Below are positions 9,382 through 46,058 of a stretch of 64,000 nt of DNA, in pieces. Made by a program: the position numbers and the translations under genes. The notes under the pieces are model-generated. The model was not told the DNA's origin, did not search any database, and worked only from the letters and a program-made list of their open reading frames with translations. The stretch is taken from NCBI RefSeq assembly GCF_037031225.1, contig NZ_JAYEZN010000001.1, positions 2,046,001-2,110,000 on the forward strand. The letters are read 5' to 3'. Position 1 is the stretch's first letter. Each line of letters opens with the position of its first letter. The stretch comes from Halorientalis sp. LT38 (GTDB taxonomy: Archaea; Halobacteriota; Halobacteria; Halobacteriales; Haloarculaceae).

Positions 9382-9389
9382 AAACGACC

Positions 9390-9421
9390 TTTTTTCCGCT
9401 CGGGTCGCGCGGAGCGCGACC
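9390..9421 (+). terminator. probable polC transcription terminator
   Basis: Six T residues at 9390-9395, nine bases after the polC stop, fit an archaeal U-run terminator. They are followed by a hairpin with an 8 bp perfect stem (GGTCGCGC, 9403-9410, pairing with GCGCGACC, 9414-9421) and a 3-base loop. Confidence 0.6.
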
Positions 9422-9451
9422 GCTCGCGCAAAAAAGCTCGGCCAAAAAAGG

Positions 9452-9479
9452 CGGAGCGCGCGCCGCGGCGCGCGCTCCG
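9452..9479. repeat. 28 bp perfect GC palindrome
   Basis: The bases from 9452 (CGGAGCGCGCGCC) to 9479 read identically on both strands, with no loop, and the sequence consists almost only of CG/GC steps. It lies in the 282-base gap between polC and the rubredoxin-like gene, after the T-run and between A-runs (9430s, 9444-9449). It could be a bidirectional transcription barrier, a protein-binding site or a cruciform; nothing else in the gap (9480-9625) looks like a gene. Confidence 0.7.
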
Positions 9480-9663
9480 TTGCTGTGCTGGTGCCGACCG
9501 CGACCGCCCCGCGACCGCTCCGCAAGCCCACGCTACCGAAGCGCCAGCCAGCCCTGGACCACCCGTATCCAGCCGGCACACTCGACGTCGTGACCACCTG
9601 GTAGCCTTCTGGTTCCCGATCCGGCCGTACATTTAACCACGAGGACGACGAATTTCGACGGGC

Positions 9664-9963
9664 ATGAGCGACTCCGCCCAAGGGACCAACCCGTCGTTCG
9701 GGCAGACGGTCTACGACGACGAGGGCAACGAACTGGGCCGCATCCGCGGGTTCGACGAACGCGGCTTCTACGTCACGCTCGACGAGGGCATCGAGGGCTT
9801 CTCCGAGGAACACGTCAAGTCCGGCCAGGAGTTCGGCGAGGCCGAGTTGATGTGGCGCTGCTGGGAGTGCGGCGAGATGGGGGACATCGAAGATGACATC
9901 CCAGAGGCCTGCCCGTCCTGTGGCGCACCCAAAGAGGACATCTATTACTGGACCGAGGACTGA
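9664..9963 (+). CDS. small rubredoxin-like zinc-ribbon protein (DUF7130-like)
   Basis: The 99-residue protein has an N-terminal beta-rich part resembling a PRC-like segment (QTVYDDEGNELGRIRGFDERGF) and a C-terminal rubredoxin-like knuckle pair, C66-x2-C69 and C83-x2-C86 (CWECG, CPSCG). It probably binds iron or zinc and may transfer electrons; the family is haloarchaeal and functionally uncharacterised. CATTTAACC at 9629-9637 is a good TATA box for a leaderless start at 9664. It lies 9 bases before panE and is probably co-transcribed with it. Confidence 0.85.
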   Translation: MSDSAQGTNPSFGQTVYDDEGNELGRIRGFDERGFYVTLDEGIEGFSEEHVKSGQEFGEAELMWRCWECGEMGDIEDDIPEACPSCGAPKEDIYYWTED

Positions 9964-9972
9964 CGCCCCTGT

Positions 9973-10860
9973 GTGGACGTCCTCGTCTTCGGAGCCGGCA
10001 GCCTCGGCTCGCTGATCGGCGGCCTGCTGGCCGGCGAGCACCGCGTGACCCTCGTCGGCCGTGATCCCCACGCCGCCACCGTCGCTGCCGAGGGCCTGGT
10101 CGTCGACGGCGAGCTCGACCGTCGGGTCCACCCCGACGCCGCGACGGCCGTCCCCACCGACGCCGCGCCCGATCTGGTCGTCGTGACCGTCAAGGCCTAC
10201 GACACCGACGCCGCAGCGGCCGCGCTGGCCGACTGCGCCCCAAACACGGTGCTCTCCCTCCAGAACGGCCTCGGCAACGAGGCGCGGTTGGCGGCCGAAC
10301 TCGACTGCCCGGTCCTCGCCGGGACCTGCACCTACGGCGCGATGCTGGCCGAACCGGGCCGGGTCACCTGCACCGGCGTCGGCGAGGTCGCGCTCGGCCC
10401 GCGCGAGGGCGGCGAATCGGCGACCGCCGACCGGGTCGGGGCGGCCTTCGAGACCGCGGGGATCGAGACGACGGTCGCGCCCGACATGCCCCGGCGATCC
10501 TGGGAGAAACTGGCCGTCAACGCCGGGATCAACGCCACGACGGCGCTGGCCCGGATCGAGAACGGGGCGGTGCTCGACGGCCCGGCGAGCGACGTCGCCG
10601 CCGCGGCCGCCCGGGAGACGGCGCGGGCAGCGCGAGAGGCCGGGGTCGACCTGTCCGACGGGGCGGCGGTCGACGCGGTCGGATCGGTCGCCGAGGCGAC
10701 CGCCGCGAACACCTCCTCGATGCACCAGGACGTCCTCGCAGGGCGGCGGACGGAGGTCGACGCCATCAATGGATGGGTCGCCGAGCGCGTCGACGCGCCG
10801 GTCAACCGGACCCTCGCGGGGCTGATCCGCGCCTGGGAGCGCGACCGCGGACTCCGGTAG
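9973..10860 (+). CDS. panE: 2-dehydropantoate 2-reductase (ketopantoate reductase)
   Basis: The 295-residue enzyme reduces ketopantoate to pantoate with NADPH for coenzyme A synthesis. It opens directly with the Rossmann motif VLVFGAGSLGSLIGG. The catalytic lysine is in RSWEKLAVNAGIN, followed by the conserved C-terminal helical domain containing SSMHQDVLAGRRTEVDAING. The start is a GTG at 9973, nine bases after the previous stop; no upstream ATG is in frame. The length is standard. Confidence 0.92.
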   Translation: MDVLVFGAGSLGSLIGGLLAGEHRVTLVGRDPHAATVAAEGLVVDGELDRRVHPDAATAVPTDAAPDLVVVTVKAYDTDAAAAALADCAPNTVLSLQNGLGNEARLAAELDCPVLAGTCTYGAMLAEPGRVTCTGVGEVALGPREGGESATADRVGAAFETAGIETTVAPDMPRRSWEKLAVNAGINATTALARIENGAVLDGPASDVAAAAARETARAAREAGVDLSDGAAVDAVGSVAEATAANTSSMHQDVLAGRRTEVDAINGWVAERVDAPVNRTLAGLIRAWERDRGLR

Positions 10861-10902
10861 AGTTGCAAAGGTTTAGTGGGTCGCCGTCCGGAGCCTCCGG
10901 TA

Positions 10903-12264
10903 ATGGAGATCTTCGGGTCCAGCGGCGTTCGCGGGGTGGCCAACGAGTACCTGAACCCGGAGTTCGTCTGCGACATCGTCCGCGCGGCCGGCTCGGTCTG
11001 GGGCGCCGACGCCGTCGCGCTGGCCCGGGACACCCGGACGACGGGCGAAATGCTGGCAAACGCCGCCGCGAGCGGCCTGGCGAGCGTCGGCGCCGACGTC
11101 CACCGCCTGGGCGTCATCCCGACGCCGGGCCTGCAGGCCTACTGCGAGCGCGTGGGGGCCCCCGGCGTGATGATCACCGCCTCACACAACCCGCCCCAGT
11201 ACAACGGCGTCAAACTCGTCGGCGCCGACGGGATCGAACTCTCGCGGGGCACCCTCGAACGCGTCGAGGAACGGCTGCTCTCTGAGGACTTCGCCGCCGT
11301 CCCCTGGGACGGCACAGGTAGAGAGGAACTGATCGACGACGCCCGGGACCGCTACGTCGAGCAGTTGCTCGCCGCCGTCGACCGCGAGCGCATCGCCGAC
11401 GCCGACCTGACCGTCGCGCTCGATCCCGGTCACGGCGCGGGCGCGCTCACGAGCCCCCGGATCTTCCGCGAACTGGGGTGTGACGTCGTCACCGTCAACG
11501 CCCAGCCCGACGGGCACTTCCCCGGCCGCGACCCCGAACCGATCGCCGAGAACCTGGCCGACCTCGGCCGACTCGTCAGGGCCGCGGACGCGGACGTGGG
11601 GATCGCCCACGACGGGGACGCCGACCGCGCCATCTTCTTCGACGAGCGCGGCGAGTTCGTCGAGGGCGACGCCGCATTCGCGGCACTGGCGGCCGCGGAG
11701 CTGTCGGAGGGGGACACCGCCGTCTCGGCGGTCAACGTCTCCCAGCGACTCGTGGACGTGGCCGACCGCGCCGGCGCCGACCTGTCGCTGACGGCCATCG
11801 GCAGCACGAACATAATCACCCGTATCCGCGACCTGCAGGCCGCGGGCGAGTCGGTCCCCATCGCCGGCGAGGGCAACGGCGGCATCCTCTTCCCCGATTA
11901 CCGGATCACCCGAGACGGGGCCTACACCGCCGCGCGCTTCCTCGAACTGCTTTCCGACCGGGCCGCGAGCGAGGTGATCGCCCCCTACGACGACTACCGG
12001 CTGCTCCGGACCGACGTGCCCTACGAGACCGACGACGAGCGCCACCGCCTGCTCGACGCGGTCGAAGCCGTGGCGCGCGACGCCGACGCGACGCTCGACA
12101 CGACCGACGGCTACCGTCTCGACTACGGCGACAGCTGGGTGCTCGCCCGCCCCAGCGGGACCGAACCGGTCGTCCGCGTCTACGCGGAGTCCCGCGATCC
12201 GAACCGGGCGGCCGACCTCGTCGAACGGATGCACGAGGCGATGATCGACGCGCGCGACCAGTAG
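10903..12264 (+). CDS. glmM: phosphohexomutase family enzyme (GlmM/phosphomannomutase type)
   Basis: The 453-residue alpha-D-phosphohexomutase has the phosphoserine loop TASHNPPQYNG (S94), the metal loop DGDADR (237-242), the sugar-binding GEGNGG segment (about 323-328) and the C-terminal phosphate loop RPSGTEPVVRVYAE. In haloarchaea such enzymes interconvert glucosamine or mannose 6- and 1-phosphates for surface glycan precursors; which sugar is used cannot be decided. The TATA-like AAGGTTTAG at 10868-10876 sets the ATG at 10903. It is convergent with the DUF7118-like gene, whose stop is 2 bases away. Confidence 0.88.
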   Translation: MEIFGSSGVRGVANEYLNPEFVCDIVRAAGSVWGADAVALARDTRTTGEMLANAAASGLASVGADVHRLGVIPTPGLQAYCERVGAPGVMITASHNPPQYNGVKLVGADGIELSRGTLERVEERLLSEDFAAVPWDGTGREELIDDARDRYVEQLLAAVDRERIADADLTVALDPGHGAGALTSPRIFRELGCDVVTVNAQPDGHFPGRDPEPIAENLADLGRLVRAADADVGIAHDGDADRAIFFDERGEFVEGDAAFAALAAAELSEGDTAVSAVNVSQRLVDVADRAGADLSLTAIGSTNIITRIRDLQAAGESVPIAGEGNGGILFPDYRITRDGAYTAARFLELLSDRAASEVIAPYDDYRLLRTDVPYETDDERHRLLDAVEAVARDADATLDTTDGYRLDYGDSWVLARPSGTEPVVRVYAESRDPNRAADLVERMHEAMIDARDQ

Positions 12265-12265
12265 G

Positions 12266-13405
12266 TCAGGGCTCGGGCAGTTCTTCGAGCGCGTCCGTCA
12301 GGTCCGCGCGTGCCTCTCGGGCCGCCGCCAGTTCGTCCCCGACGGCGCCCGACCGCAACCGCTCGCGCTCCTCGGCGTCGAGTTGCTCGCGGGCCCGTGC
12401 GCTCTGTCGGAGCCGATCGTAGTCCTCGCGACCGGTCAGCGACCGAACGTCGCGGAGCTGTGCGACCACGTCCTCCGGCGCGAAGCGGCCGGTCACCTGG
12501 ATCAGCTCTCGCACGCGAAACCGTAATTCGGCGGCGGGCGGCGGGGGCCAGCCGACAGTCAACGGTTCGGCGTCCAGCCGCCGGACGTAGGTCTGGCAGC
12601 TCCCCACCGCGGTCTGCAGCGCGCCCGGATCGTCCACGTAGTGGTCGAGCTTGGAGTTCGAGTAGCCGGCGTACTCGAGGAGGGTGGGGAGCGGCTCGGT
12701 TCCGGGCGGGTGGTTCTGGACGTACCCGGTGAGTTTCGCCGGCGGCTGCCGGAACTCGACGAGCGGGAACGCCGCCGTCGCCTCGACGAAGGAGAGCACG
12801 TCGCGGGCGCTCGCCTCGCGCTTGAACTCGCGGAAGGCCTCGGCCACGGCGTCGTCGTAGGCCTCGATCGGCTCCTGGAGCCGCTCGACGGGGGCTTCCA
12901 GATCGGCCTCCCCCAGCGACTGCAGGTCCTCGAGGTCGGCGATCCGCTCGTCCAGTTCCCTGATCCGGCGCTCGGCGCGCGTGCGGAGGTCCTCGTACCG
13001 GGACCGGGTCGCGTTCCGTTCCTCCAGCAGCGCGGCGTCGTCGGCCACGGGCGAGAGGATCTCCCGGGCCTTCCCGAAGTCCGATTCGGTCAGTCGGCGC
13101 TGCTGGAGGACGTCGTCGACCTCCTCGAAGCGCTCGCGGTGGGGCAGGTCCGCGGGTAGCCCCTCGACGAACTGGCCGAGTTCCTCCTGGAACTCGATGA
13201 AGACCCTGAAGTCGCCGTCGCCGGTGGCCTCCTCCTCGTAGGTGTCGAACAGTTCACGCAGTCGGTCGTAGCACTGGGCGGTCGTCTCGAGTCGCTCGGC
13301 GCCGCGCTCGTCGACGCGGGCCTGTGCGCTCTCGGCCGCGCGGTGGGCGGCTTCGAGGTCGGCGAGCAGGTCGGGGACGTCCCCGGGGCCCGCGTCGTCA
13401 CTCAT
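12266..13405 (-). CDS. haloarchaeal coiled-coil protein (DUF7118-like)
   Basis: The 379-residue acidic protein is mostly helical with coiled-coil character in 1-170 (runs such as [23 protein letters not shown]). It has a more compact C-terminal region containing [20 protein letters not shown]. No catalytic motif is visible; it resembles a haloarchaeal family of unknown function. The ATG at 13405 lies inside the end of hisI (ATGAGTGA, 8-base overlap), so translation is coupled to hisI. An upstream in-frame start near 13432 is possible but would overlap hisI further. Confidence 0.75.
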
Positions 13406-13772
13406 CGTAGACGTCGTCGGGGTCGAAGACACGCTCGCCCACGACCTCGCCGTCGATCGTACGGTGGAAACACGAGCGATAGCCGGTGTGGCAGGCGCCC
13501 CCCTCCTGGTCGACCAGGTACAGCAGCGCGTCCCCGTCGCAGTCGATCCGGACCTCTTCCACAGTCTGGACGTGGCCGCTCGTGGCCCCCTTCTCCCAGA
13601 GCTCGTCGCGGCTGCGCGAGTAGTAGTGGGCCCGCCCCGTCTCGCGGGTCCGGTCGAGGGCCTCGCGCGTGACGAACGCGAGCATCAGCACCTCGCCGGT
13701 GTCGGCGTCCTGCGCGACCGCCGGCAACAGGTCCTGCTCATCGAAGGCCGGCTCGACGTCCGAGTGTTCCAT
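13398..13772 (-). CDS. hisI: phosphoribosyl-AMP cyclohydrolase
   Basis: The 124-residue enzyme catalyses the third step of histidine synthesis, opening the adenine ring of phosphoribosyl-AMP. Clear family blocks are [37 protein letters not shown] and the zinc/magnesium site [14 protein letters not shown]...[10 protein letters not shown]. It is the stand-alone form without a HisE domain. It is first in a two-gene unit with the DUF7118-like gene. hisA and hisB lie 4 and 6 kb away as separate transcription units. Confidence 0.96.
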
Positions 13773-13967
13773 ATCCCACCTCCGACCGTCGCCCCGATAA
13801 TCTTTGTGTCACTCCTCCCGTCTCCCGATATCAGTTCTGAAGTCGCGATCGGGACGGTATCGGGACTGATTCTCGGCCCCCAGAGCGGTCCGTTCGTTCC
13901 TCAGAAAGTTCTCAGAAACTGTAATCGGAGGTCAGCGTTTTTGACACTCCGGATCTCGAGTGATTGC

Positions 13968-14483
13968 ATGCAACGCCGGCAGTTCCTCCAGGCGGTCGCG
14001 GGCGGGACCACGCTGGGGAGCGCCGGCTGTCTCGGGATCGGCGGCGACCTCGTGGTGACCGTCCAGAAGGACGTCTCGGTCGAACCCGGCACTGGCTGGA
14101 TCAAGGAGATCCCCGACGTCTCCGATTCTGGCGGCGAGATCGCCTACACCGCCAGGTCGCGGGCCCCCTTCGACGTGTACTTCTTCACGAGCGCCGAGGC
14201 GATGCGCCGGTACGACGCCTACACGAGCGGCGAGGAGCCCGAGTCGACGCCGCCCGGCGATCAGGACGTGGGGCGGACGGCCACGTCGACCGGGGGCGAC
14301 CGATACGAGGCCACGTCGGCCAACGACGGCGGCCGCCAGCCGATCGAGGGGTCCGGCCCGTACTACTTCGTGCTGGATCACACCGATTACCCGGCCGCCG
14401 GCGGCGCGCGCCCGGACGAGATGCCCGAGCGGCGGTCGATCTTCCTCGATCTAACCGTCACGCGCCAGCGCTTTGGCCTCTAG
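13968..14483 (+). CDS. Tat-exported lipoprotein of unknown function
   Basis: The 171-residue product begins [13 protein letters not shown], a twin-arginine signal, and has a lipobox SAGC with C21 as the lipid-modified cysteine. The rest is an all-beta-looking domain with [19 protein letters not shown] and [12 protein letters not shown], resembling haloarchaeal lipoproteins that bind no obvious cofactor. GCGTTTTTGACA near 13935-13946 provides a promoter for a leaderless start at 13968. It ends in a CTAG shared with the convergent prepilin peptidase (14480-14483). Confidence 0.75.
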
Positions 14484-15505
14484 AAGACGCCGACGCCCGA
14501 CAGCAGCGCGTAGAGCACGTCACCGTAGGTCAGCCCGACCAGGAGGCCGAGGAACATCGGGACGAGGAAGGGGATGCCCGGGGTGATCCACACGTCCTCC
14601 TCGTCGGCGAGGACGGCGAGGCCGCCGCGCAACTGCTCGGGCGTGGTCCCGTAGGCGGTGCCCTCGATCTCCTCGAAGAACCGCTCGGCCGCCCAGGGGT
14701 CCGCGAACGCGTCGGCGCCGTCCTCGGGCTCCTGGCCCGCGGCCACGGCCTCGTCGACCTGGCCGCCGTCGGGCACGGGGATCGACCCGTCGCCCGGGGG
14801 GTTCGTCTCCGCCGGGACGCTCGCGGGGTCGCGGAACCGTTCGGGGTCGGCGAGCAGGTCGGCCAGCGACGCGCCCCGCCAGGCCAGGTACATCCGGAGC
14901 GCGTCGAGGTCGAGGCCCCGGCGCGTGAACCCGTCGGGCGTCTGGAGCAGGCGGCCGTACTCCTCGTCGAGCCGGTCGACCGCGACCGGCCGGCCGATCG
15001 CCATCGCTTTCGCTAGGTGACCACCGGCGGCGTTGCGGAGCGCGAGCGCGACGGGGTAGAAGAGGCCGACGACGACCGTGTTCGAGAGGACCGTCATGGC
15101 GAACACCCCCAGCGTGGGGACCACGGTCGGGAGCGCGAACTCGGGGAACAGGTAGGTGGGAAACGTCGGAAAGAGGACCGCGAGCGTGATTAGCGCCTTG
15201 GCGTCGGCGCCGCCGAAGCCGCCGATCCACCAGAAGCCGTAGGCGAGCGGGACCATGAACCCGAGGCTGATGGTCACGCGCAGGAAGTACGGCCGCTGGG
15301 GGACGTAGACCGGCGTGGTCCCGGTCCAGACCTGCCAGGCCTCGATGCCGAGCGCCAGGACGGCGACCGCGAGCAGTGGCAGCCACGTCCGGTTGGGGAC
15401 GCGCCGGGTCTTGACGTCACGCCAGGCGGCCCAGCCCAGCGCCGGGACGGCGACGAGGCGTAGCAGGTCGGGGACCGACGCGGTCACGAGGGCGGTCGAT
15501 ACCAC
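14480..15505 (-). CDS. A24-family prepilin peptidase (PibD-like)
   Basis: The 341-residue membrane aspartic peptidase should cleave class III signal peptides of pilins or archaellins. The two catalytic aspartates are visible as D30 in [11 protein letters not shown] and D101 in [12 protein letters not shown] (haloarchaeal variant of GxGD). About six hydrophobic segments flank a long soluble loop (about 180-300) rich in acidic residues, larger than in classical PibD, and a final membrane pair. The start is GTG at 15505; a second GTG at 15484 is possible. Confidence 0.85.
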
Positions 15506-15569
15506 ACCCGGCCCCAGCGAGGGCTAGGGCAAAGCGTTTGCGCACGACTCGAAACGGAGAAGGGCCGCG

Positions 15570-15959
15570 TCAGATGACGCGGTTCTGCAGGTAATCGAGG
15601 TGCTTGGCGTTGTAGACGATTCGGACCTCGTCCGCGTCCGGGCTGCCGATGCAGGTCAGGCGGACGTTCTTGTCCTCGACTTCCTCGTCCGAGAGGATCT
15701 GCTGCATGTCCATGTCGATCTCGCCTTCGACGACGATGGCCGCGCAGTTGGCGCACGCGCCAGCGCGACACGAGAAGGGCCAGTCGTAGCCCTGTGCCTC
15801 CGCGGCCTCGAGGATGTACTCGCCTTCGTTGACGTCGAGGGTACCGTAATCCTCGTCGTCGAGGTCGGCGTCGGCCGCCTTGTCGAAGGTGTCGCTCTCG
15901 TACATGTCCCAGCCGTGATCGTCCAGTACTTCGTAATTTAGGTACTCTACCGTGGGCAT
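15570..15959 (-). CDS. fdx: halophilic 2Fe-2S ferredoxin
   Basis: The 129-residue plant-type ferredoxin has the haloarchaeal acidic N-terminal insertion (about 10-45). Cluster ligands are C64, C69, C72 ([11 protein letters not shown]) and C103 (RLTCIGSP), and the conserved C-terminus is [13 protein letters not shown]. It is the electron acceptor of 2-oxoacid:ferredoxin oxidoreductases in these archaea. The start [10 protein letters not shown] at 15959 gives the family's exact 129-residue length; the upstream ATG at 15965 would add two residues. Confidence 0.97.
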
Positions 15960-16050
15960 CACCACGGAGGTTCGGCCCCCTGACTGTTAGATGTTGCTGT
16001 TTTCGGCCCCCCTGGGTGAACAATTATGCTGGATTTTTCCGAGCAGGTGG

Positions 16051-17256
16051 TCAGAACAGGGGAACGAACCGGAAGATGAGGTAGGAGGCCACCGTCGCGA
16101 TGGCCGGCACGACGTTCTGCAGCAGGATCACGCGGGCGGTCGTCGCCGGCTCGAACAGGTCCGAGGTCTTCGGGATGTCCGCCCGCTCCTCCTCGCCGAT
16201 GGCCTTCCGACCCTCGCCCTCGGGGGTCCCGCCCTCGCCGCCGACCGTCGGCGCGTCCTCGGACTCGGCGGCCAGCGCTCCCGGCGAGACCGCCGGGCGG
16301 TCGCCCCGCACCGCGTCGCCGATGGTCGCCGTCCGCGTCGCCCGCCCCCAGCCCAGGCCCACGATGCTCATCGTCGCGATGATGACGAAACTCGCCGGGA
16401 TCCCGATGCCGGAGAGGAAGGTCACGAGCGTCGAACTGACGACCGCCACCACCAGCGCCGCCAGGATCGGCAGGTCCGTCAGGTCGTTGCCCACGGTGTC
16501 CATCGTCCGCCGCGCGATGGTGAACGCGCCCAGCCCGATCGCCCCCGCGCCCAGCAGGACCCCCTCGTAGAGGCCGATCTGGTCGCTCCCGACCAGCGGC
16601 GCGACGGCGTTGGCGACGTTCGACGCGCCCGCTGAGAAGGCCATGTAACAGCCGATGACGACCACGAGCACGGTGCCGACGAACTCTCGCCGGGTGGTGC
16701 CCGGACCGAGGTACGGTCGGGGGAGGAGCCCGGACCGGTCGAACGCGAGGAGCGATCCCTCGGACTGGGTGATGGCGAAGGACTCGACCAGTCTGGGGTA
16801 GAAATAGCGCCCGATGACGCCGCTGATCCAGAACGCTGCCAGCGGCGAGACGAGCCACCAGGAGACGATCTCCCCCATCTTCGCCCAGTTGAGCGTCCCC
16901 TGGGCCAGCCCGAGGCCGGCGATGGCCCCGACCGCGGTCATCGACGTCGAGGCCGGGACGCCCACGACGTTCGAGAGGAAGAGGGCGAACCCGATGAAAA
17001 ACAGGACGGCGATGGAGGCCCCGATGGTGAAGGCGCTCTGGGGCACGATCTCGCCGCCCATCGTCTCGACGACCTCCGTCCCGACGGTGATCCCGCCCAG
17101 CGTCGCGAAGATCGTCATGAGGATCGCGGCCCCGAACTTCGTGACCGTCTTCGCCCCCACGGCGGGCCCGAAGGCGACGCCGGTCGACGAGCCCCCGATG
17201 TTGAATCCGACGAAGACGGCCACCAGCAGCCCGACGAGGAGGAGGGCCGATGCCAT
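16051..17256 (-). CDS. PiT-family inorganic phosphate transporter
   Basis: This 401-residue permease has the inverted PiT repeats: the N-terminal GFNIGGSSTGVAFGPAVGAK with GVPASTSMTAVGAIAG, and the C-terminal GASNVANAVAPLVG with GIGIPASFVIIATMSIVG. About ten membrane segments surround an acidic cytoplasmic loop (about 330-375). It should import phosphate with a cation. A second PiT paralogue of different sequence lies at 39133. The gene is divergent from hisA, sharing a 127-base promoter region. Confidence 0.92.
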   Translation of the reverse strand: MASALLLVGLLVAVFVGFNIGGSSTGVAFGPAVGAKTVTKFGAAILMTIFATLGGITVGTEVVETMGGEIVPQSAFTIGASIAVLFFIGFALFLSNVVGVPASTSMTAVGAIAGLGLAQGTLNWAKMGEIVSWWLVSPLAAFWISGVIGRYFYPRLVESFAITQSEGSLLAFDRSGLLPRPYLGPGTTRREFVGTVLVVVIGCYMAFSAGASNVANAVAPLVGSDQIGLYEGVLLGAGAIGLGAFTIARRTMDTVGNDLTDLPILAALVVAVVSSTLVTFLSGIGIPASFVIIATMSIVGLGWGRATRTATIGDAVRGDRPAVSPGALAAESEDAPTVGGEGGTPEGEGRKAIGEEERADIPKTSDLFEPATTARVILLQNVVPAIATVASYLIFRFVPLF

Positions 17257-19750: not shown

Positions 19751-20338
19751 ATGACCGACCGGACGGCGGCGGTGACCCGCGAGACCGCCGAAACGGAGAT
19801 CGAGGTGACGCTCGATCTGGACGGCGACGGCGAGGCGACGGTCGACACGGGCGTCGGCTTCTTCGACCACATGCTCGAGTCGCTGGCCAAGCACGGCCTG
19901 TTCGACCTCACCGTCGACTGCGACGGCGACCTGGAGATCGACGACCACCACACCGTCGAGGACGTGGCGATCACCCTCGGCCAGGCCCTCGAGGAGGCCC
20001 TTGGCGACAAGCGCGGCATCCGCCGCTACGCCGACCGCAAGGTCCCGCTGGACGAGGCCGTCGCCGAGGTCGTCGTCGACGTTTCGGGGCGGCCGTTCTT
20101 CGAGTTCGAGGGCGACTTCGCCCAGGACACCGTCGGCGAGTTCACGAGCCACATGGGCAAACACTTCCTGCGCTCGCTCGCGACGAACGCCGGCCTGACG
20201 CTGCACGCCTCGGTCGAGGGCGAGAACGCCCACCACCAGGTCGAGGCGCTGTTCAAGGCGCTGGCTCGCGCGCTGGACGACGCGACGCGGATCGACGAGC
20301 GCCGCAGCGACACGCCGAGTACGAAGGGCGAACTGTAG
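19751..20338 (+). CDS. hisB: imidazoleglycerol-phosphate dehydratase
   Basis: The 195-residue monofunctional enzyme dehydrates imidazole glycerol phosphate in histidine synthesis. Manganese-binding motifs are [21 protein letters not shown] and [24 protein letters not shown]-like TTTCTTATG at 19719-19727 supports the ATG at 19751. The last 57 bases (20282-20338) recur with 3 synonymous mismatches at 21028-21084, beyond a Doc toxin gene, so hisB's own 3' end brackets an insertion. Confidence 0.97.
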
Positions 20339-20343
20339 GAGCG

Positions 20344-20844
20344 ATGGACGAGGACTTCGAGTACCTCTCCGTCGAGGACGTTCTCGCCGTTCACGAGTTC
20401 ATCGTCGAATCGAACGGCGAGACGGAAGCGGGCGTCGCTTCCCGTGGTGACGTCGAGTACGCGCTCGAACACGTCCGAGCGGGTCAGTTCGGACAGGGGC
20501 CCGAGACGATACACGAGAAGGGGTATCAACTCATGCGTCTGCTCGTGGCGAACCATCCGTTCGTAGACGGAAACAAACGGACGGCTCTGGCTTCGACCGT
20601 CGTCCTCTACGCGCTGAACGGGATTCAGTTCGACTACGACCGGCGGATCAAGTCTTTCCTGAAACGACTCGGGACTGACGAATCGGACGTCGACTCGACG
20701 GACGTGATCGACTATCTCGACGAGCACACAGCGCCGCTCGAAGCCGAGTACGCCGACACCTATCGACTCTGGCTGTCCGTCATCGAAACGGACACCGAGC
20801 AATCCGGGCGCAACGGTTATGACGACACGAACGCAACCGAATAA
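20344..20844 (+). CDS. doc: Doc/Fic-family toxin
   Basis: The 166-residue protein carries the Fic active site HPFVDGNKRT at residues 71-80, with the Doc-type opening YLSVEDVLAVHEFIVE and the flanking GYQLMRLLVANHPF and LYALNG segments. Doc proteins phosphorylate elongation factor EF-Tu, while other Fic proteins AMPylate targets. The glycine pattern after HPF fits the Doc branch, but a substrate cannot be assigned. It starts 5 bases after hisB's stop and may be co-transcribed with hisB. No Phd-like antitoxin precedes it; the likely partner is the small acidic gene overlapping or following its end. Confidence 0.88.
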   Translation: MDEDFEYLSVEDVLAVHEFIVESNGETEAGVASRGDVEYALEHVRAGQFGQGPETIHEKGYQLMRLLVANHPFVDGNKRTALASTVVLYALNGIQFDYDRRIKSFLKRLGTDESDVDSTDVIDYLDEHTAPLEAEYADTYRLWLSVIETDTEQSGRNGYDDTNATE

Positions 20845-20848
20845 CGAG

Positions 20849-20986
20849 ATGGCCGTAGACGACGAGTCCCGATCTATCCCCGAGGATCTGTCTCCCGAGG
20901 AGGCGCGTCGTCGCCTCATGCGGTTAATTACGCGCCAGGACATGGAGGCCCACGAGGACATCTACGAGGAACTCGCCGAAGAGTAG
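20849..20986 (+). CDS. small acidic protein downstream of doc, candidate antitoxin
   Basis: This gene of 45 residues begins MAVDDESRSIPEDLSPEEA, then RRRLMRLITRQDMEAHED, and ends in an acidic tail. It starts 4 bases after the doc stop; an alternative ATG at 20819 in the same frame would overlap doc and give 55 residues. It is too short for a ribbon-helix-helix or Phd domain but could wrap the toxin as the C-terminal part of known antitoxins does. Antitoxin identity is inferred from position and charge only. Confidence 0.55.
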   Translation: MAVDDESRSIPEDLSPEEARRRLMRLITRQDMEAHEDIYEELAEE

Positions 20987-20994
20987 TTCCGACT

Positions 20995-21360
20995 TCACGT
21001 CCTGTTTTCAGATCGTCGTTCGACCATGCGACGCGGATCGACGAGCGCCGCAGCGACACGCCCAGTACGAAGGGCGAACTCTAACGGGCCCGTAGATCGC
21101 GCCACGAGGCGGCGCTTCGAACGGCGCCCGCCGCAGAGCGCTTCGATGTACGGCGCCACGTCTTCGTCGGTGACCGCCCGTCCGTGAACGTCTTTCAGGT
21201 GCGACCGTGTGGCCTCGTAGGTCGACCCCTCGAACTGGACCCGTTCCTCGAGACGAGTCACGGCCCCGAGACACAGCGAGAGTCCGGACGCGAGTCGGCC
21301 CGGGCCAGCGAGGTCGACCTCGAGGAGATGCGATCGCTCCTGGTCGAGGTCGAAGAGCAT
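20995..21360 (-). CDS. possible truncated hypothetical gene running into the hisB islet
   Basis: An open frame of 121 residues opens MLFDLDQERSHLLEVDLAG and has plausible haloarchaeal codon use for about the first 90 residues (to about 21090). The final 30 residues are the antisense of the displaced hisB tail and of islet sequence, so the natural end of the protein seems to be missing. It may be a genuine gene cut by the rearrangement or merely an open frame. No domain is recognised. Confidence 0.35.
   Translation of the reverse strand: MLFDLDQERSHLLEVDLAGPGRLASGLSLCLGAVTRLEERVQFEGSTYEATRSHLKDVHGRAVTDEDVAPYIEALCGGRRSKRRLVARSTGPLEFALRTGRVAAALVDPRRMVERRSENRT
21028..21084 (+). pseudogene. hisB: displaced 3' end of hisB (remnant)
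   Basis: These 57 bases match the end of intact hisB (20282-20338) at 54 positions, in the same orientation and frame, and encode the identical C-terminus [18 protein letters not shown]-stop. The three differences are CCG/CCC, CTG/CTC and TAG/TAA, all silent. The direct repeat is separated from hisB by 689 bases holding doc and its candidate partner. This is the layout left when an element enters a gene's 3' end and restores it. Confidence 0.9.
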
Positions 21361-32851: not shown

Positions 32852-32959
32852 ACCGGTCGTGTCGGTGCCCGCCTGCATAAAACCGGACGCGGCGGATCGG
32901 CGACCGAAAAGCCACGGGGGAAGAGGTATATTGCGTCACCCCATACGTGCCGGGAACCG

Positions 32960-33688
32960 ATGGAAGAGAGTGTTTCGGGGTTCAAGCAACGCGGCAGGTG
33001 GGTCGACGTGGTCGAACACGGCGAACGCATCACGCGTGCGCTGACCGACCTGCTGGAAGACCCCGACGTCGACGCCCCGATCGACGAGGACGCCCTCGCT
33101 GACTTCGACGAGTGGCGACCCAAGACCGACGAACGCCTCGACGAAGACGTCAACGAGAAGACCGCCGACCAGGCCAGCGTCGACGAGGGAGAGGGGGAGA
33201 AAGCCGGCAAGGACCCCGACGAGGACCTCCAGAAGGCCGGCGAGAAACTCACCGAGTCCTACGAGAAACTCGACGACGACCCGGACGAGGCCGTCGACAA
33301 GTGGGGCGAGTCGATCGACTACGTCGCCCGCGCGGCCGACTCCGCCGGCCGGAAGGCCCTCCGGGCGGTCGAAGGGGCCGTCTACAAGAACGTCATGACC
33401 CAGATCGCCCCCTACTACTTCGACAACGGCCTCGTCAGCGCCAACCTCCAGCGCGTCGGCCGCGGGGAGGCCCCCGAGTACGTCTTCGAGGTCAACGTCA
33501 ACGACGACGACCTCAAGATCCGCGTCTCGAACAGACTCGCCGACTTCGAATCCGACGTCGACCGCTGGCACGTCGACACGCCGAAAGACACGGACACCGT
33601 CGAAGCCGTCGAGGGCGTCGAGCCGCCGGACCCCGGCGACGAACTCGTCGCCGAGTCCAACGAACCCGCGCCCGACGACGAGGAGTGA
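32960..33688 (+). CDS. DUF5828-like haloarchaeal protein
   Basis: The 242-residue very acidic protein begins MEESVSGFKQRGRWVDVVEHGERI. A helical N-terminal half (33-125) holds many DED/KAG runs, and a compact C-terminal domain contains YKNVMTQIAPYYFDNGLVSA and EAPEYVFEVNVNDDDLKIRVS. The family is conserved in Halobacteria and has no assigned function. No signal peptide or membrane segment is visible. It lies between upp and katG. Confidence 0.8.
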   Translation: MEESVSGFKQRGRWVDVVEHGERITRALTDLLEDPDVDAPIDEDALADFDEWRPKTDERLDEDVNEKTADQASVDEGEGEKAGKDPDEDLQKAGEKLTESYEKLDDDPDEAVDKWGESIDYVARAADSAGRKALRAVEGAVYKNVMTQIAPYYFDNGLVSANLQRVGRGEAPEYVFEVNVNDDDLKIRVSNRLADFESDVDRWHVDTPKDTDTVEAVEGVEPPDPGDELVAESNEPAPDDEE

Positions 33689-33786
33689 CGACCCCCGCTC
33701 GGCGCGGGGTCTTTGCTTCCGAACAAACTCTTTTCGCAAACGAGAAAGGAAGAACCTGGATCTCAACCAATAGATTTGTATTCGCA

Positions 33787-33800
33787 GAACACGACTGTTC
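33787..33800 (+). promoter_or_regulatory. inverted repeat in the katG promoter
   Basis: GAACA-CGAC-TGTTC is a 5 bp perfect inverted repeat with a 4-base spacer, located 17-30 bases before the katG ATG. It is just downstream of the AT-rich box GATTTGTATT (33773-33782), a typical operator position for a peroxide- or metal-responsive repressor. The regulator is not identified. Confidence 0.5.
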
Positions 33801-33807
33801 GCTGTAG

Positions 33808-35985
<2,178 letters not shown>

Positions 35986-36092
35986 TCCCGGCCCGCGGCA
36001 CCGAGCCGCGCTGACCGCATTCTCCCGAATTTTCGGATTCGCTCGAATTCCCGCCGGACAGACTCAAGTCCCTCGCCTCCCTCGATCCTGTA

Positions 36093-36587
36093 GTGCGAAC
36101 CGCAAACTTCGGGCCGGTCGCGCCTGACGCCGACGTCTTCGGCGCGTGTCGACCCGGCCACCTCGGCGGCGACCGCTCTGCGTGGACGGCGACGCTCGCC
36201 GACGCCGGGGTCGGCACGGTCGTCTGTCTCCTCTCTGCCGACGAAGCGAGACGCTGGGGAGCGCCCGCCGCGTACGAGGACGCCTTCGAGACCGTCCACG
36301 CGCCGATCCGCGACCGTCACCTGCCCGAGGTCGACCGGCTGCGGTCGGTGCTCGACGCGCTCGCGACGGCGACGGACGACGGCGGTCGGGCCGCCGTCCA
36401 CTGCAACGCCGGCCTCGGCCGGACCGGCGTGGTCGGAGCGGCGTGGCTCGTGCGGGCTCGCGACCTGTCCCCGCCCGAGGCCGTCGAGACCGTCTCGAAC
36501 GTGACCGTCCCGCGGTCGCCCCGGGAGGCGATCCGCGACGGGAACGCGACCGAAAGAGAGCTCTACGACCTGCTGGCCCGGGTCTGA
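36093..36587 (+). CDS. dual-specificity protein phosphatase
   Basis: The 164-residue cysteine phosphatase has the P-loop HCNAGLGRTG (catalytic C104) and a plausible general acid in APIRDRHLPE. It belongs to the small archaeal DSP/tyrosine phosphatase group and would dephosphorylate proteins or RNA/sugar phosphates. The start is GTG at 36093, with TATA-like ACTCAAG about 27 bases upstream. Only 12 bases separate its stop from the displaced cysK tail on the other strand. Confidence 0.88.
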   Translation: MRTANFGPVAPDADVFGACRPGHLGGDRSAWTATLADAGVGTVVCLLSADEARRWGAPAAYEDAFETVHAPIRDRHLPEVDRLRSVLDALATATDDGGRAAVHCNAGLGRTGVVGAAWLVRARDLSPPEAVETVSNVTVPRSPREAIRDGNATERELYDLLARV

Positions 36588-36599
36588 CGTCTCCCCGTC

Positions 36600-36674
36600 G
36601 AACAGTCCCGTCGAGCGGTATCGCTCGCCGGTGTCCGGCAGCACGACGACGGTCACCTCCTCGGGGTAGTCACG
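36600..36674 (-). pseudogene. cysK: displaced 3' end of cysK (remnant)
   Basis: These 75 bases match 37831-37905, inside the end of intact cysK, at 69 positions in the same orientation. They encode RDYPEEVTVVVLPDTGERY then RSTGLFD, against the same segment with LSTELFD in CysK. Upstream it is cut within a codon or two of the membrane gene's stop (36687); downstream its own stop is missing. It is a remnant, separated from the intact gene by a 1.1 kb islet. Confidence 0.88.
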
Positions 36675-36686
36675 GCGACGCCGCGA

Positions 36687-37688
36687 TCAGTCGCCGCCGA
36701 AGGTCTTCTCGGGCGGGACGAACGATCCGATCGACACCGTGTACAGAGACACCGTGGCCACCCGCAACAGGGACGCGACGAGCACCGCGAGGGGAGCGAG
36801 GATGACCCCGGTCGCGATCACCACGACGAACGGGAGCAGGGACGGATCGATCGCCGGTGGCCGGTTCGGCGCGGCGCTGTAGACGGCCGAGAGGAAGTAC
36901 GTCACCAGTATGGCGGGGACGCCGGTGTATATCAGGTGCCGCGACAGCATGGCCAGTTCCTGCTGGAGCGTGACCGTCTTGAAGAACTGCCGCATCGTCG
37001 CGACGGCCTTCAGAAGTTCCACCACGTCGTCTAGCGCCTCGCTCGCCGCCGAGGGGAGTTCCTCGCCGTACTCGCGCTCGAGGGCCCGGCTCGTGTCCAT
37101 GTGATCGGCGTAGTCGGTCCCGAGGGTGAGCAACAGGACCTCGAACGTGTCGTCGAGGTCGTCGGCCGCCGACAGCCGACCGGCGTAGGTCGAGATGGCG
37201 TCGGCGTAGGCGTCGAGGTCCTCCGCGTCCGAAAGCGAGACGGCGGTCCCCCCCGCTCCACGCCGGAGGTCTTCGACGCGACTGCCCAGCGTGTCTCCGA
37301 GGAGGGCGAGGAACTCGCCCGGCTCGTTCGGACTCGCGGCAACGCCCGCCACGGCCTCGACGGAGCGTCGGAACTCGAGCGTCCCCGCCAGTTCATCCGA
37401 GAGCGACCCCGCGGACCCGAACACCCGCGAGAGGACGAGCTGGTTGACCGACAGCGCGACCGTCAAAAGCGTCAACAGACCGGACAACATACCGCTCGAG
37501 AGCACCGTCGAGAAGTTGCTCCCGGCACCGACGTAGACGAGGTCGAAGCCGACCAGCAGCGCTGCGAGGGCGACGAAGAGCACCGAGAGGACACCGGCGA
37601 CGGCCAGTCGATCCCCGGTGACGTAGGCCCACCGGGTCAGCGGGCCGTCGAGGTCACCGTTCCGATTTCTTCCGTGTCCGTCCGACAC
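36687..37688 (-). CDS. haloarchaeal membrane protein in the cysK islet
   Basis: The 333-residue protein has two N-terminal membrane helices (about 25-95), a long acidic helical central domain (about 100-245) and two C-terminal helices (about 255-315). A conserved-looking SAADDLDDTFEVLLLTLGTDY stretch lies in the soluble part. The family is not recognised. The start is GTG at 37688. GC content is as high as the neighbours, unlike the hisA islet gene. It lies between cysK and the duplicated cysK tail, in the same orientation. Confidence 0.75.
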   Translation of the reverse strand: MSDGHGRNRNGDLDGPLTRWAYVTGDRLAVAGVLSVLFVALAALLVGFDLVYVGAGSNFSTVLSSGMLSGLLTLLTVALSVNQLVLSRVFGSAGSLSDELAGTLEFRRSVEAVAGVAASPNEPGEFLALLGDTLGSRVEDLRRGAGGTAVSLSDAEDLDAYADAISTYAGRLSAADDLDDTFEVLLLTLGTDYADHMDTSRALEREYGEELPSAASEALDDVVELLKAVATMRQFFKTVTLQQELAMLSRHLIYTGVPAILVTYFLSAVYSAAPNRPPAIDPSLLPFVVVIATGVILAPLAVLVASLLRVATVSLYTVSIGSFVPPEKTFGGD

Positions 37689-37806
37689 GGTCCAGACCTT
37701 CCACTTCGAGCCGAATAAACTGCGTTCTAGGGCAGCTTACCCGTCCGGTCGCGCGACCTGACCGCAGGGTGATCCACCGCCGTCGAGCGGCGCGAGCGGT
37801 CGCCGG

Positions 37807-38775
37807 CTACGCCTCGTCTTCCGACGGATCGAACAGCTCCGTCGAGAGGTATCGCTCGCCGGTGTCGGGCAGGACGACGACGGTCACCTCCTCGGGGTAA
37901 TCACGTGCAACGTCGAAGGCCGCGGCGGCCGCCGCGCCGCTGGAGATGCCGACCAGCAGGCCGGCCTCGCGGGCCAGCCGACGGGTGGTTTCTTTCGCCC
38001 GATCCTCGCGGATCGTCCGGACCTCGTCGATCACGTCCGGGTCGAGCGTGTCGGGGACGAAACTCGGGCCGATGCCCTGGATGCCGTGGGAACCACCTTC
38101 CCCCTTCGAGAGAATGGGCGAGCCTTCGGGTTCGACCGCCACGGAGCGCAGCGACTCCTTGCCCTGATCTTCCGTGACGTGTTTCGAGACGCCCGTGATC
38201 GTGCCGCCGGTGCCGACGCCGGCGACGACGGCGTCGACCTGCCCGTCGGTGGCTTCCCAGATCTCCGGACCGGTCGTCTCGCGGTGGGCGCGCGGGTTGG
38301 CGTCGTTCTCGAACTGCTGGGGCATGAACCCCTTCTCGACGTCGGCGAGCAGCTCCTCGGCGCGGTCGATGGCCCCGCCCATCCCGCCGTCTGCCGGCGT
38401 CAGTTCGAGGGTGGCGCCCAGCGCCGAGAGCAACTGCCGGCGCTCCTCGCTCATCGAGGCCGGCATGGTCAGCGTCAGGTCGTACCCCTTCGCCGCGCAG
38501 ACGAAGGCCAGCCCGATCCCCGTGTTGCCGCTCGTTGGTTCGATGACGTGCGTCTCGTCGTCGACCAGCCCCTCGTCTTCGGCCTGTTCGATCATCTCGC
38601 GAGCGATCCGGTCCTTGACGGAGAACGGGTTGCCCGCCTCCACCTTCGCGTAGCAGTTCGGGGCGAACTGCGAGAGGTCGACGAGCGGCGTGTCGCCGAT
38701 CAGTTCCGTTGCCGACGCCGCGGCGTCGATCCCGTCTGTACGCCCCTCCCCTGCACGCAGTGGCGTCTCGCTCAT
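37807..38775 (-). CDS. cysK: cysteine synthase (O-acetylserine sulfhydrylase)
   Basis: The 322-residue PLP enzyme makes cysteine from O-acetylserine and sulfide. The PLP lysine is K54 in NPFSVKDRI, the substrate loop is PTSGNTGIGLAF, the phosphate-binding loop is GVGTGGTITGV and the C-terminal serine is in GISSGAAAAAA. The ATG at 38775 (MSETPLRAGEG) is preferred to an upstream in-frame start. Codons encoding the last 25-30 residues are duplicated at 36600-36674, marking an insertion at this gene's 3' end. Confidence 0.95.
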   Translation of the reverse strand: MSETPLRAGEGRTDGIDAAASATELIGDTPLVDLSQFAPNCYAKVEAGNPFSVKDRIAREMIEQAEDEGLVDDETHVIEPTSGNTGIGLAFVCAAKGYDLTLTMPASMSEERRQLLSALGATLELTPADGGMGGAIDRAEELLADVEKGFMPQQFENDANPRAHRETTGPEIWEATDGQVDAVVAGVGTGGTITGVSKHVTEDQGKESLRSVAVEPEGSPILSKGEGGSHGIQGIGPSFVPDTLDPDVIDEVRTIREDRAKETTRRLAREAGLLVGISSGAAAAAAFDVARDYPEEVTVVVLPDTGERYLSTELFDPSEDEA

Positions 38776-44819: not shown

Positions 44820-46058
44820 ATGGCAGTCGACGACGTCGAGTACGAGCCGGTCAGCGTCGTGGAGTTGCTGGCCGAGATGAAGGACACGGCCGAACTGCTG
44901 ATCGACCTCTCGTACTCGGCGGTCCTGCTCGGCTCCGACGAGGTGGCCGAGGAGGTCCTGGAACTGGAGGAGAAGATGGACGTCCTCCAGCTCCGCGCGC
45001 GGATGAGCCTCCTGATGGCCGCCCGCAACCCCGAAGACGCCGAGGCGCTGGCCCCCGTACTGGGCGTCGTCGGCGCCGCAGAGAAGGTCAGCGACGCCGC
45101 CGGCGACATCGCCAAGATCGTGCTCGAGGACATGGGGCTGCCCGACGCGATGCGAGCCGCCCTCCCCGAGGCCGTCGAGACCGTCGTCCGGGCCGTCGTC
45201 GCCCCGGACTCGCCCTTCGCCGACCGGTCCCTCGAAGCCATCAACCTCGAGACCGAGACGGGCGTGCGCGCGATCGCCATCCGCCGCGAGGGCGAGTGGC
45301 TGTTCAATCCCGACGCCGAAACCACGCTCCGATCCGGCGACGTGGTCCTCTTCCGCGGCTCGGAGGAGGGCATCGCCGACGTCTACGAGGACGCGAGCGG
45401 CCGCGAGTACGTCCCGCCAGAACCCCCGGAACCGGTGATCGACGACCTCGAACGCGCCGTGGACTCCATCGTCCACATGAAGAACATGAGCGAACTCGCC
45501 GTCGACCTGGCCTACGGCGCGGTCCTCTTCGACTCCGACGAGGTGGCCGAAGAAGTGCTGGAACTCGAAGCCGAGGTCGACGCGCTCCAGTCGCGCTTCG
45601 AGGCCTGGACGCTCCGGGCTGCCAGCCGCGTCGACGACCCCGTCGACCTGCGCGGGCTCGTCCAGCTGGCCAGCGCCACCGAGGTCATCAGCGACGCCGC
45701 CCTGGAGATCAGCGAGGGCGTCCTCCGCGGGCTCGGCACCCACCCGGTCGTCGCCGAAGCGGTCAGGGAGTCCGACGAGGTGATCGTTCGGCTGCCCGTC
45801 GCCCCCGACGCCGTCCTCGCGGGCACGACGCTCGGCGAGCGTGAAGTCAAGACCGAGACGGGCATGCGGGTCATCGCCGTCCGCCGCGCCCGCGCCGAGA
45901 GCGAACGCACCGGCCGCGAGGGCGGCAGCTGGGTCATCTCGCCCGGGCCGGACACGGAACTCCACCCCGGCGACGTGCTGATCGCGAAGGGAACGCGGTC
46001 GGGCGCCGCCCGGCTGGCGAACCTGGCCGGCGACGACCCCAGTGCCGACGCGGTCTAG
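44820..46058 (+). CDS. tandem PhoU / TrkA-C (RCK_C) regulatory protein
   Basis: The 412-residue soluble protein consists of two copies of the same unit. A PhoU-like helical domain (about 5-110 and 220-315) begins SVVELLAEMKDTAELLIDLSYSAVL-like and MKNMSELAVDLAYGAVL, each with SDEVAEEVLELE. It is followed by a TrkA-C domain (about 118-200 and 320-400, AIAIRREGEWLFNPDAETTL and VISPGPDTELHPGDVLIAKG). TrkA-C domains bind small ligands such as cyclic di-AMP in potassium transport. No channel gene is adjacent, so its partner is elsewhere. Its stop shares a CTAG with the next gene. Confidence 0.87.
   Translation: MAVDDVEYEPVSVVELLAEMKDTAELLIDLSYSAVLLGSDEVAEEVLELEEKMDVLQLRARMSLLMAARNPEDAEALAPVLGVVGAAEKVSDAAGDIAKIVLEDMGLPDAMRAALPEAVETVVRAVVAPDSPFADRSLEAINLETETGVRAIAIRREGEWLFNPDAETTLRSGDVVLFRGSEEGIADVYEDASGREYVPPEPPEPVIDDLERAVDSIVHMKNMSELAVDLAYGAVLFDSDEVAEEVLELEAEVDALQSRFEAWTLRAASRVDDPVDLRGLVQLASATEVISDAALEISEGVLRGLGTHPVVAEAVRESDEVIVRLPVAPDAVLAGTTLGEREVKTETGMRVIAVRRARAESERTGREGGSWVISPGPDTELHPGDVLIAKGTRSGAARLANLAGDDPSADAV

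Follow-up and report, generated by a model that had tools for sequence, protein, structure and literature searches.

A putative displaced cysK 3′ end behind a membrane-protein gene in Halorientalis sp. LT38, and a recurring scar behind haloarchaeal genes

Between cysK and a convergent gene that we take to be katG, the genome of Halorientalis sp. LT38 carries a second copy of the cysK 3′ end (the shred) beyond a membrane-protein gene (MEM). We put the chances at about even that the shred is a displaced cysK 3′ end lying at the joint of two katG-cysK haplotypes. The joint probably postdates the arrival of MEM and was probably made by homology-anchored, one-sided (illegitimate) recombination between relatives. 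A congener already has MEM in the same interval, another species has the interval empty, the same footprint occurs at other genes, and the proteins scanned include no recombinase. Events of this kind are already known, as homology-facilitated illegitimate recombination and as insertion with long target duplication; the cysK islet is a new case.

Results

The cysK islet and its repeat

Intact cysK (cysteine synthase A, 37807..38775, minus strand) was named from the equivalog model TIGR01139 (393.8 bits, cut-off 350.95) and from PALP. Self-BLASTN of the window, by which we mean the whole 64-kb stretch of DNA analysed, showed that its 3′ region (the tail, 37829..37915, minus strand, taken as the reference copy) is repeated on the same strand at 36598..36683, over 87 columns at 90% identity (E 3.7e-25), with a single one-base gap near 36675. 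Without gaps, 69 of 75 bases agree between 36600-36674 and 37831-37905, which confirms the 75-bp same-strand copy with two residue changes described in an earlier note on this DNA; a gap, once allowed, extends the match to 87 columns. A tblastn-type search recovered the shred independently, as a 29-aa piece (83%, E 2e-8). It reads RDYPEEVTVVVLPDTGERYRSTGLFDGET, where intact cysK ends RYLSTELFDPSEDEA followed by its stop, with two residue differences between them; it has no stop of its own, and its reading frame is open to 35970.

Downstream of cysK the minus strand carries, in order, the cysK stop, MEM and the shred, and then come two plus-strand genes, a DSP-type protein phosphatase and the katG-like gene. 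MEM (36687..37688, minus strand) encodes 333 amino acids, and its stop codon lies at 36687-36689. The edge of the shred falls 12 bases past this stop in the ungapped alignment, as had been noted together with the missing stop, and about 3 bases past it in the gapped one. The phosphatase gene (36093..36587, plus strand; Pfam DSPc and relatives), between katG and the shred, is a second inserted gene that the earlier note did not include. The katG-like catalase-peroxidase gene (33817..35985, plus strand) was recognised by Pfam peroxidase and by gene order in relatives, and is the convergent native neighbour.

MEM lies within a block (36676..37802, minus strand) common to the window and the congener G098, which comprises the gene, about 110 bp upstream of it and about 11 bp past its stop (BLASTN to L050 5839-6964, 82.8%). 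One end of the block abuts the shred exactly and the other comes to within a few bases of the stop of cysK. Homology to cysK stops at 36675 and the G098-homologous block begins at 36676, so that non-homologous DNA is joined there; similarity across the joint is patchy, with microhomology judged by eye.

When the whole window was searched for repeat pairs at most 10 kb apart at E≤1e-6, three pairs were found in total, all direct and including that of cysK; none was inverted. The pair at 44854-44990 and 45454-45590 has both copies inside one gene with a doubled domain and was set aside. An 87-bp repeat is not the short, fixed target duplication left by a transposon, and no recombinase was found among the 10 neighbour proteins and the cargo proteins scanned.

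The membrane-protein family

No model in Pfam or NCBIfam matches the 333-aa protein, which belongs to a haloarchaeal family, and its AlphaFold model is poor (mean pLDDT 54). Family members were found in 269 of 293 genomes of the order, with four copies in the window's genome. The nearest relative (76-77%) sits in the same katG-cysK interval of G098, without a shred, and relatives at 63-65% (L056-L059) have neither cysK nor katG nearby. Far from being always tied to cysK, the family thus has many locations independent of it. A direct repeat brackets the gene within about 1.5 kb at one of 30 family loci, solely that of the window; MEM is cargo and not agent. On these grounds (one bracketed locus in 30, and a G098 relative without a shred) we rejected a mobile MEM cassette that targets gene 3′ ends. 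The insertion proposed in the earlier note stands as to the extra genes, since cysK and katG are adjacent in H. regularis, and falls as to a MEM cassette moving to gene 3′ ends. A foreign source, which the earlier note drew from the GC-rich cargo in proposing another haloarchaeon as donor, was likewise rejected: GC is the same in MEM and cysK (0.680 and 0.692), as is GC3 (0.883 and 0.885), and the argument has no force.

The katG-cysK interval in relatives

Genomes were compared at one per species. A cysK of 84-85% identity was present in two of the seven other genus genomes, H. regularis (G212) and G098. In H. regularis about 330 bp separate the end of cysK (7647) from that of katG (7979), with neither MEM nor the phosphatase gene in between and a single copy of the cysK end; a cysK locus without the insertion, which the earlier note had suggested looking for, therefore exists. 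The order in G098 is katG, MEM (76%), a ZIP transporter, a 186-aa ORF and cysK, with no phosphatase and no shred. MEM already being in this interval in G098, we regard it as an old resident there. A third genome, G162, lacks a high-identity cysK and retains 111 bp of its 3′ end (residues 279-315; L052 6896-7006) between PHO4-like and katG genes.

Over 77 comparable columns, tail and shred are 92% identical to each other, and either copy is 86% identical to G098, 90% to H. regularis and 81-82% to G162; informative sites are few, with one exclusive and five minority shared states against six differences. Tail and shred being nearest each other, they would have parted inside the host's sublineage, with MEM already present, unless gene conversion homogenised the copies. 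The alignment thus points to a cysK-end duplication younger than the split from G098 and H. regularis, again unless gene conversion made the copies alike.

Next to the islet, katG and the gene upstream of it (32916-35987) share 93.2% identity with G098, against 81-83% in the flanks, and the high-identity block ends at the katG stop. Its identity suggests a recent, second and separate exchange beside the islet. The phosphatase gene is present in 2 of 8 genus genomes and 10 of 29 relatives, and at three other loci (L151-L153) it was seen beside neither cysK nor katG.

The same footprint at other genes

We sampled the window and, in each of five genomes, 20 stretches 20 kb long (2,064,000 bases in all), with genes in the stretches called by a simple codon-usage script. 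A footprint pair was defined as two same-strand copies at least 250 bp apart, of which one touches the final 25 bp of a called gene and the other lies in intergenic DNA downstream. Five such pairs were found, at hisB and cysK in the window, a hisJ-like gene (L167), a G098 gene (L181) and a G162 gene (L232), the last being a case of the stem-loop element described below. Other pairs in this sample were mostly gene-gene and some intergenic-intergenic, and three were inverted; the pilin-like tandem genes of L233 and the other gene-gene pairs were treated, by eye, as paralogues.

The sister islet in the window, which the earlier note assigned to hisA, lies at hisB (NCBIfam HisB equivalog) and has a Doc toxin as cargo. 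The reference copy of the hisB 3′ end (20276..20337, plus strand; self-BLASTN) is followed by the Doc-family toxin gene (20344..20844, plus strand; Fic/DOC and DOC_P1) and then by the displaced end (21022..21083, plus strand; 62 bp, 94%), which keeps its stop (TAA at 21082-21084) and was found as a 23-aa piece by protein search. In H. salina, hisB has its own shred and a different cargo, an acyltransferase gene. In G098 the start of the toxin frame is fused to the end of the antitoxin, a decayed state, and the shred is split by a small insert. Compared across these loci (window 20276-21083; L258 2026-2406; L262 231-1565), the hisB 3′ end appears as the same target with different cargoes, a Doc toxin-antitoxin in one case versus an acyltransferase in the other.

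The hisJ-like phosphatase gene (L167 16369-17142), in the window's own genome, has copies of 81 bp (95%) lying 4.3 kb apart; the islet spans L167 12050-16439 (genome C1 about 1732050-1736439), and its 4.2-kb cargo encodes PQQ-propeller and PH-domain proteins. In a site comparison, tail and shred are 96% identical to each other and at most 79% identical to relatives. Several relatives have the convergent neighbour within tens of bases of this gene. In the window's genome a small zinc-ribbon-like gene stands between the two, together with shred and cargo, and the shred has cargo on either side, as it also does at cysK.

In G098, the gene L181 17086-17640 has copies of 129 bp (81%) lying 7.2 kb apart. 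The islet (9861-17222) has a 7.2-kb cargo of flippase, glycosyltransferase and glycosidase-like (GH26-like) genes. The H. regularis alignment here (8329-9996 to 7-1642) starts in the neighbour gene and continues unbroken through the shred, which constitutes an empty site and identifies the shred as the native gene end in its native place. Tail and shred are 79% identical to each other; against other species the tail reaches 82-91% and the shred 72-83%.

A second sample of 34 haloarchaeal loci including the window (710,585 bases; pairs of at least 60 bits) gave 30 direct and two inverted pairs, many of them intragenic. Among the loci examined, PHO4 of H. regularis has a similar footprint of 106 bp, whose repeat is not the extreme gene end, and in Natronolimnohabitans sp. 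A-GB9 (L086 8503-11385) a purH-like 3′ end, named by eye, has a second copy about 2.6 kb off, the cargo there including cysK itself. In several cases a few bases at most separate the gene stop from the start of the cargo. The scar recurs behind genes here and in relatives and marks a recurring route for new genes into these genomes. As a separate observation, a 37-bp direct repeat (97%) surrounds one gene in Halorussus aquaticus (L093 15848-15884 and 16908-16944).

Enrichment at gene 3′ ends

Probes of 90 bp from the 3′ end, 5′ end and middle of the 1,702 genes called in the 2.06 Mb were searched within 9 kb. With 3′ probes, intergenic copies numbered 11 downstream on the same strand, at nine genes, and one upstream. 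The 5′ probes gave one upstream (75% identity) and two downstream, both at one pilin-like gene, to which the single intergenic copy found with middle probes also belonged. Opposite-strand intergenic copies were absent for every probe class across the 1,702 genes. In these sampled genes, intergenic end-copies lie almost exclusively downstream, on the same strand, and come from 3′ ends. Six of the nine genes with downstream copies are stem-loop cases, so that the class with gene cargo rests on three genes; L181 fell below the threshold of this test. Copies inside other called genes showed no such bias: each of the six combinations of probe and side had 6 to 9 same-strand matches.

A stem-loop element with gene-end copies

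A haloarchaeal element of 50-70 nt, CGCCCACGTTTTT-N20-48-AAAAAGGTGG, forms a stem-loop past gene stops. In the short-range repeat cases the common spacer, some tens of bases past the stop, is CGCCCACGTTTTT, the stem-loop and AAAAAGGTGG, followed directly by the gene-end copy. Searched as an exact pattern, the element was found in 24 of 146 genomes of the order, with 13 copies in the window's genome; the pattern read backwards gave none. We tested 50 copies of the element (30 plus 20 loci from two pattern searches). In 16 of these, which are not independent events since the same gene ends recur across genomes, a copy of the upstream sequence (score at least 40) starts -1 to +8 nt behind the element; one further copy scores 30-39, 33 have none, and none of 50 shuffled controls reaches 30. 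What is copied is usually the preceding gene's 3′ end, the coding end in most of the 13 loci inspected closely. An earlier tally gave 8 of 16 in the stretches and 5 of 5 in other loci, of which two are a single site. It is biased, the element having first been noticed through repeat-flanked cases; the test of 50 copies is fairer, yet its pattern derives from such cases too.

Element sites include L212 7040, L227 596, L232 8621 and 8784, L237 8872 and 8984, L241 15493 and L242 11224, with L296, L320 and L324 as loci in the window's own genome; at L232 a 163-bp unit that includes the gene end is repeated in tandem. In the window itself no such element was found. A scan of one element locus (601 bases) against Rfam returned two chance-level matches far under the gathering scores, and a search of one library for the strings AAAAAGGTGG and CCCACGTTTTT and by topic returned nothing on the element. 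The small mobile repeats of Haloquadratum (about 110 or 80 bp), reportedly without target duplication, are a possible relative, going by their published description (PMC3119063). The stem-loop element with its gene-end copy is a side finding, perhaps more novel than the islet.

Discussion

If the shred lies at the joint of two haplotypes, one of these would have had cysK followed by MEM, an outline kept in G098, and the other cysK running towards the phosphatase gene and katG. Homology on one side would have anchored the strand exchange; the anchor would lie in cysK or in genes beyond it, or else in katG if the event is read in mirror image. The other side would have been closed by the homology-poor joint at 36675/36676, bringing the sequence after MEM against a point 75-87 bp inside the 3′ end of the other cysK. 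The old cysK end would persist as neutral scrap, and cysK function would be kept since the joined piece supplies a complete 3′ end. We infer the anchor side, the end-joining step and the origin of both haplotypes in the host's own sublineage. Recombination is supported by the arrangement in G098 and by the katG exchange block beside the islet. Counting against it, the predicted katG-phosphatase-cysK haplotype without MEM was found in no genome, the phosphatase gene being present in 2 of 8 in the genus, and comparison of identity in 100-column steps showed no donor breakpoint along cysK, itself intact. The states shared by tail and shred would fit plain target duplication or gene conversion equally well.

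A rather unlikely alternative is that the host's own cysK end was duplicated around captured DNA, so that both copies are native. It would account for tail and shred being nearest each other, at 92% in cysK and above all at the hisJ-like gene (96% versus at most 79%), for cargo that begins a few bases past the stop in several cases, and for the single copy in H. regularis. However, MEM was already in the G098 interval, and there was hence no single fresh capture; moreover, at the 7.2-kb site of G098 the 79% between tail and shred is no closer than to other species, although neutral decay of the shred could explain this. A little less probable still is a general haloarchaeal insertion mode, one process at transcription ends, in which something is placed past the stop codon, with a duplicate of the gene's final 20-130 bp behind it; its outputs would range from the 50-70 nt stem-loop element through single genes (membrane protein, Doc toxin, acyltransferase) to 7-kb clusters. 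We think it improbable that a unit of the cysK 3′ end and MEM was duplicated in tandem and the phosphatase gene then replaced the second MEM, stranding the cysK end, a course for which the repeated 163-bp unit with a gene end at L232 offers a precedent; it requires two further events, and there is no trace of a second MEM beside the shred.

Loss of cysK save its 3′ end, with later regain along with MEM, finds a parallel in G162, where the 3′ shred (residues 279-315) between PHO4-like and katG genes is what remains in a genome without a high-identity cysK. We hold it to be very improbable here: tail and shred are nearer each other than to the cysK of any other genome seen, and re-import would need a close relative. 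Gene 3′ ends are usual integration sites, and hisB was used with two different cargoes, both of which would suit site-specific integration of an element at the cysK 3′ end, with the repeats as attL and attR and the integrase lost or acting in trans. Yet the target genes are unrelated, the repeats at cysK, hisB, the hisJ-like gene and the G098 gene have no common core by eye, they differ in length (62-129 bp) and are not identical, and the cargo ranges from 0.5 to 7 kb. Unrelated targets and the lack of a recombinase in the proteins scanned disfavour such integration, which we consider the least probable of these readings.

The joining of two haplotypes, our preferred reading, has its closest counterpart in the effector loci of the Vibrio cholerae T6SS, for which sequential displacement by homology-facilitated illegitimate recombination has been proposed (Kirchberger, 2017; PMC5361080). 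As described there, one side is anchored by homology and the other is illegitimate, the old 3′ end is shifted behind the cargo, and the process is repeatable; those are bacterial effector and immunity genes, whereas here the target is an archaeal housekeeping gene that stays intact, and the cargo is unrelated to it. In keeping with that process, the relative G098 carries MEM two genes from cysK within the katG-cysK interval. Insertion with long target duplication in Helicobacter pylori (Nobusato, 2000, as described in PMC1643837) similarly leaves direct target repeats flanking the cargo and a single copy in the other genome. However, the insertions in that account are associated with restriction-modification genes, a frequent though not strictly defining link. 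There are none of these here, where the cargo is a membrane protein and a phosphatase, and in the cases seen here a stop codon lies at or near the end of the repeated stretch.

Among haloarchaea, strain-specific DNA between direct repeats has been described in Haloquadratum walsbyi and Halobacterium, where the repeats are mostly under 20 bp and are read as marks of repeat-mediated deletion (PMC3119063). The repeat in our cases is a gene end and must therefore arise by insertion or joining, unlike those deletions. A haloarchaeal route to the homology-poor joint is offered by the Ku-independent, microhomology-mediated end joining of Haloferax volcanii, which uses 3-5 bp of microhomology (PMC2700283), although it was described from a plasmid repair assay and not from gene acquisition. 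Further background is provided by work on homology-facilitated illegitimate recombination in E. coli (PMC3240628) and on small variable segments (PMC2884548).

The footprint is small and easy to search for, and it gives gene gains a direction: at sites whose empty form is known, the original gene end is the shred, still at its native position. Its occurrence at several housekeeping genes shows haloarchaea adding genes behind conserved genes while leaving these unbroken. Should the stem-loop elements be part of this process, its mechanism would be testable in genetically tractable haloarchaea.
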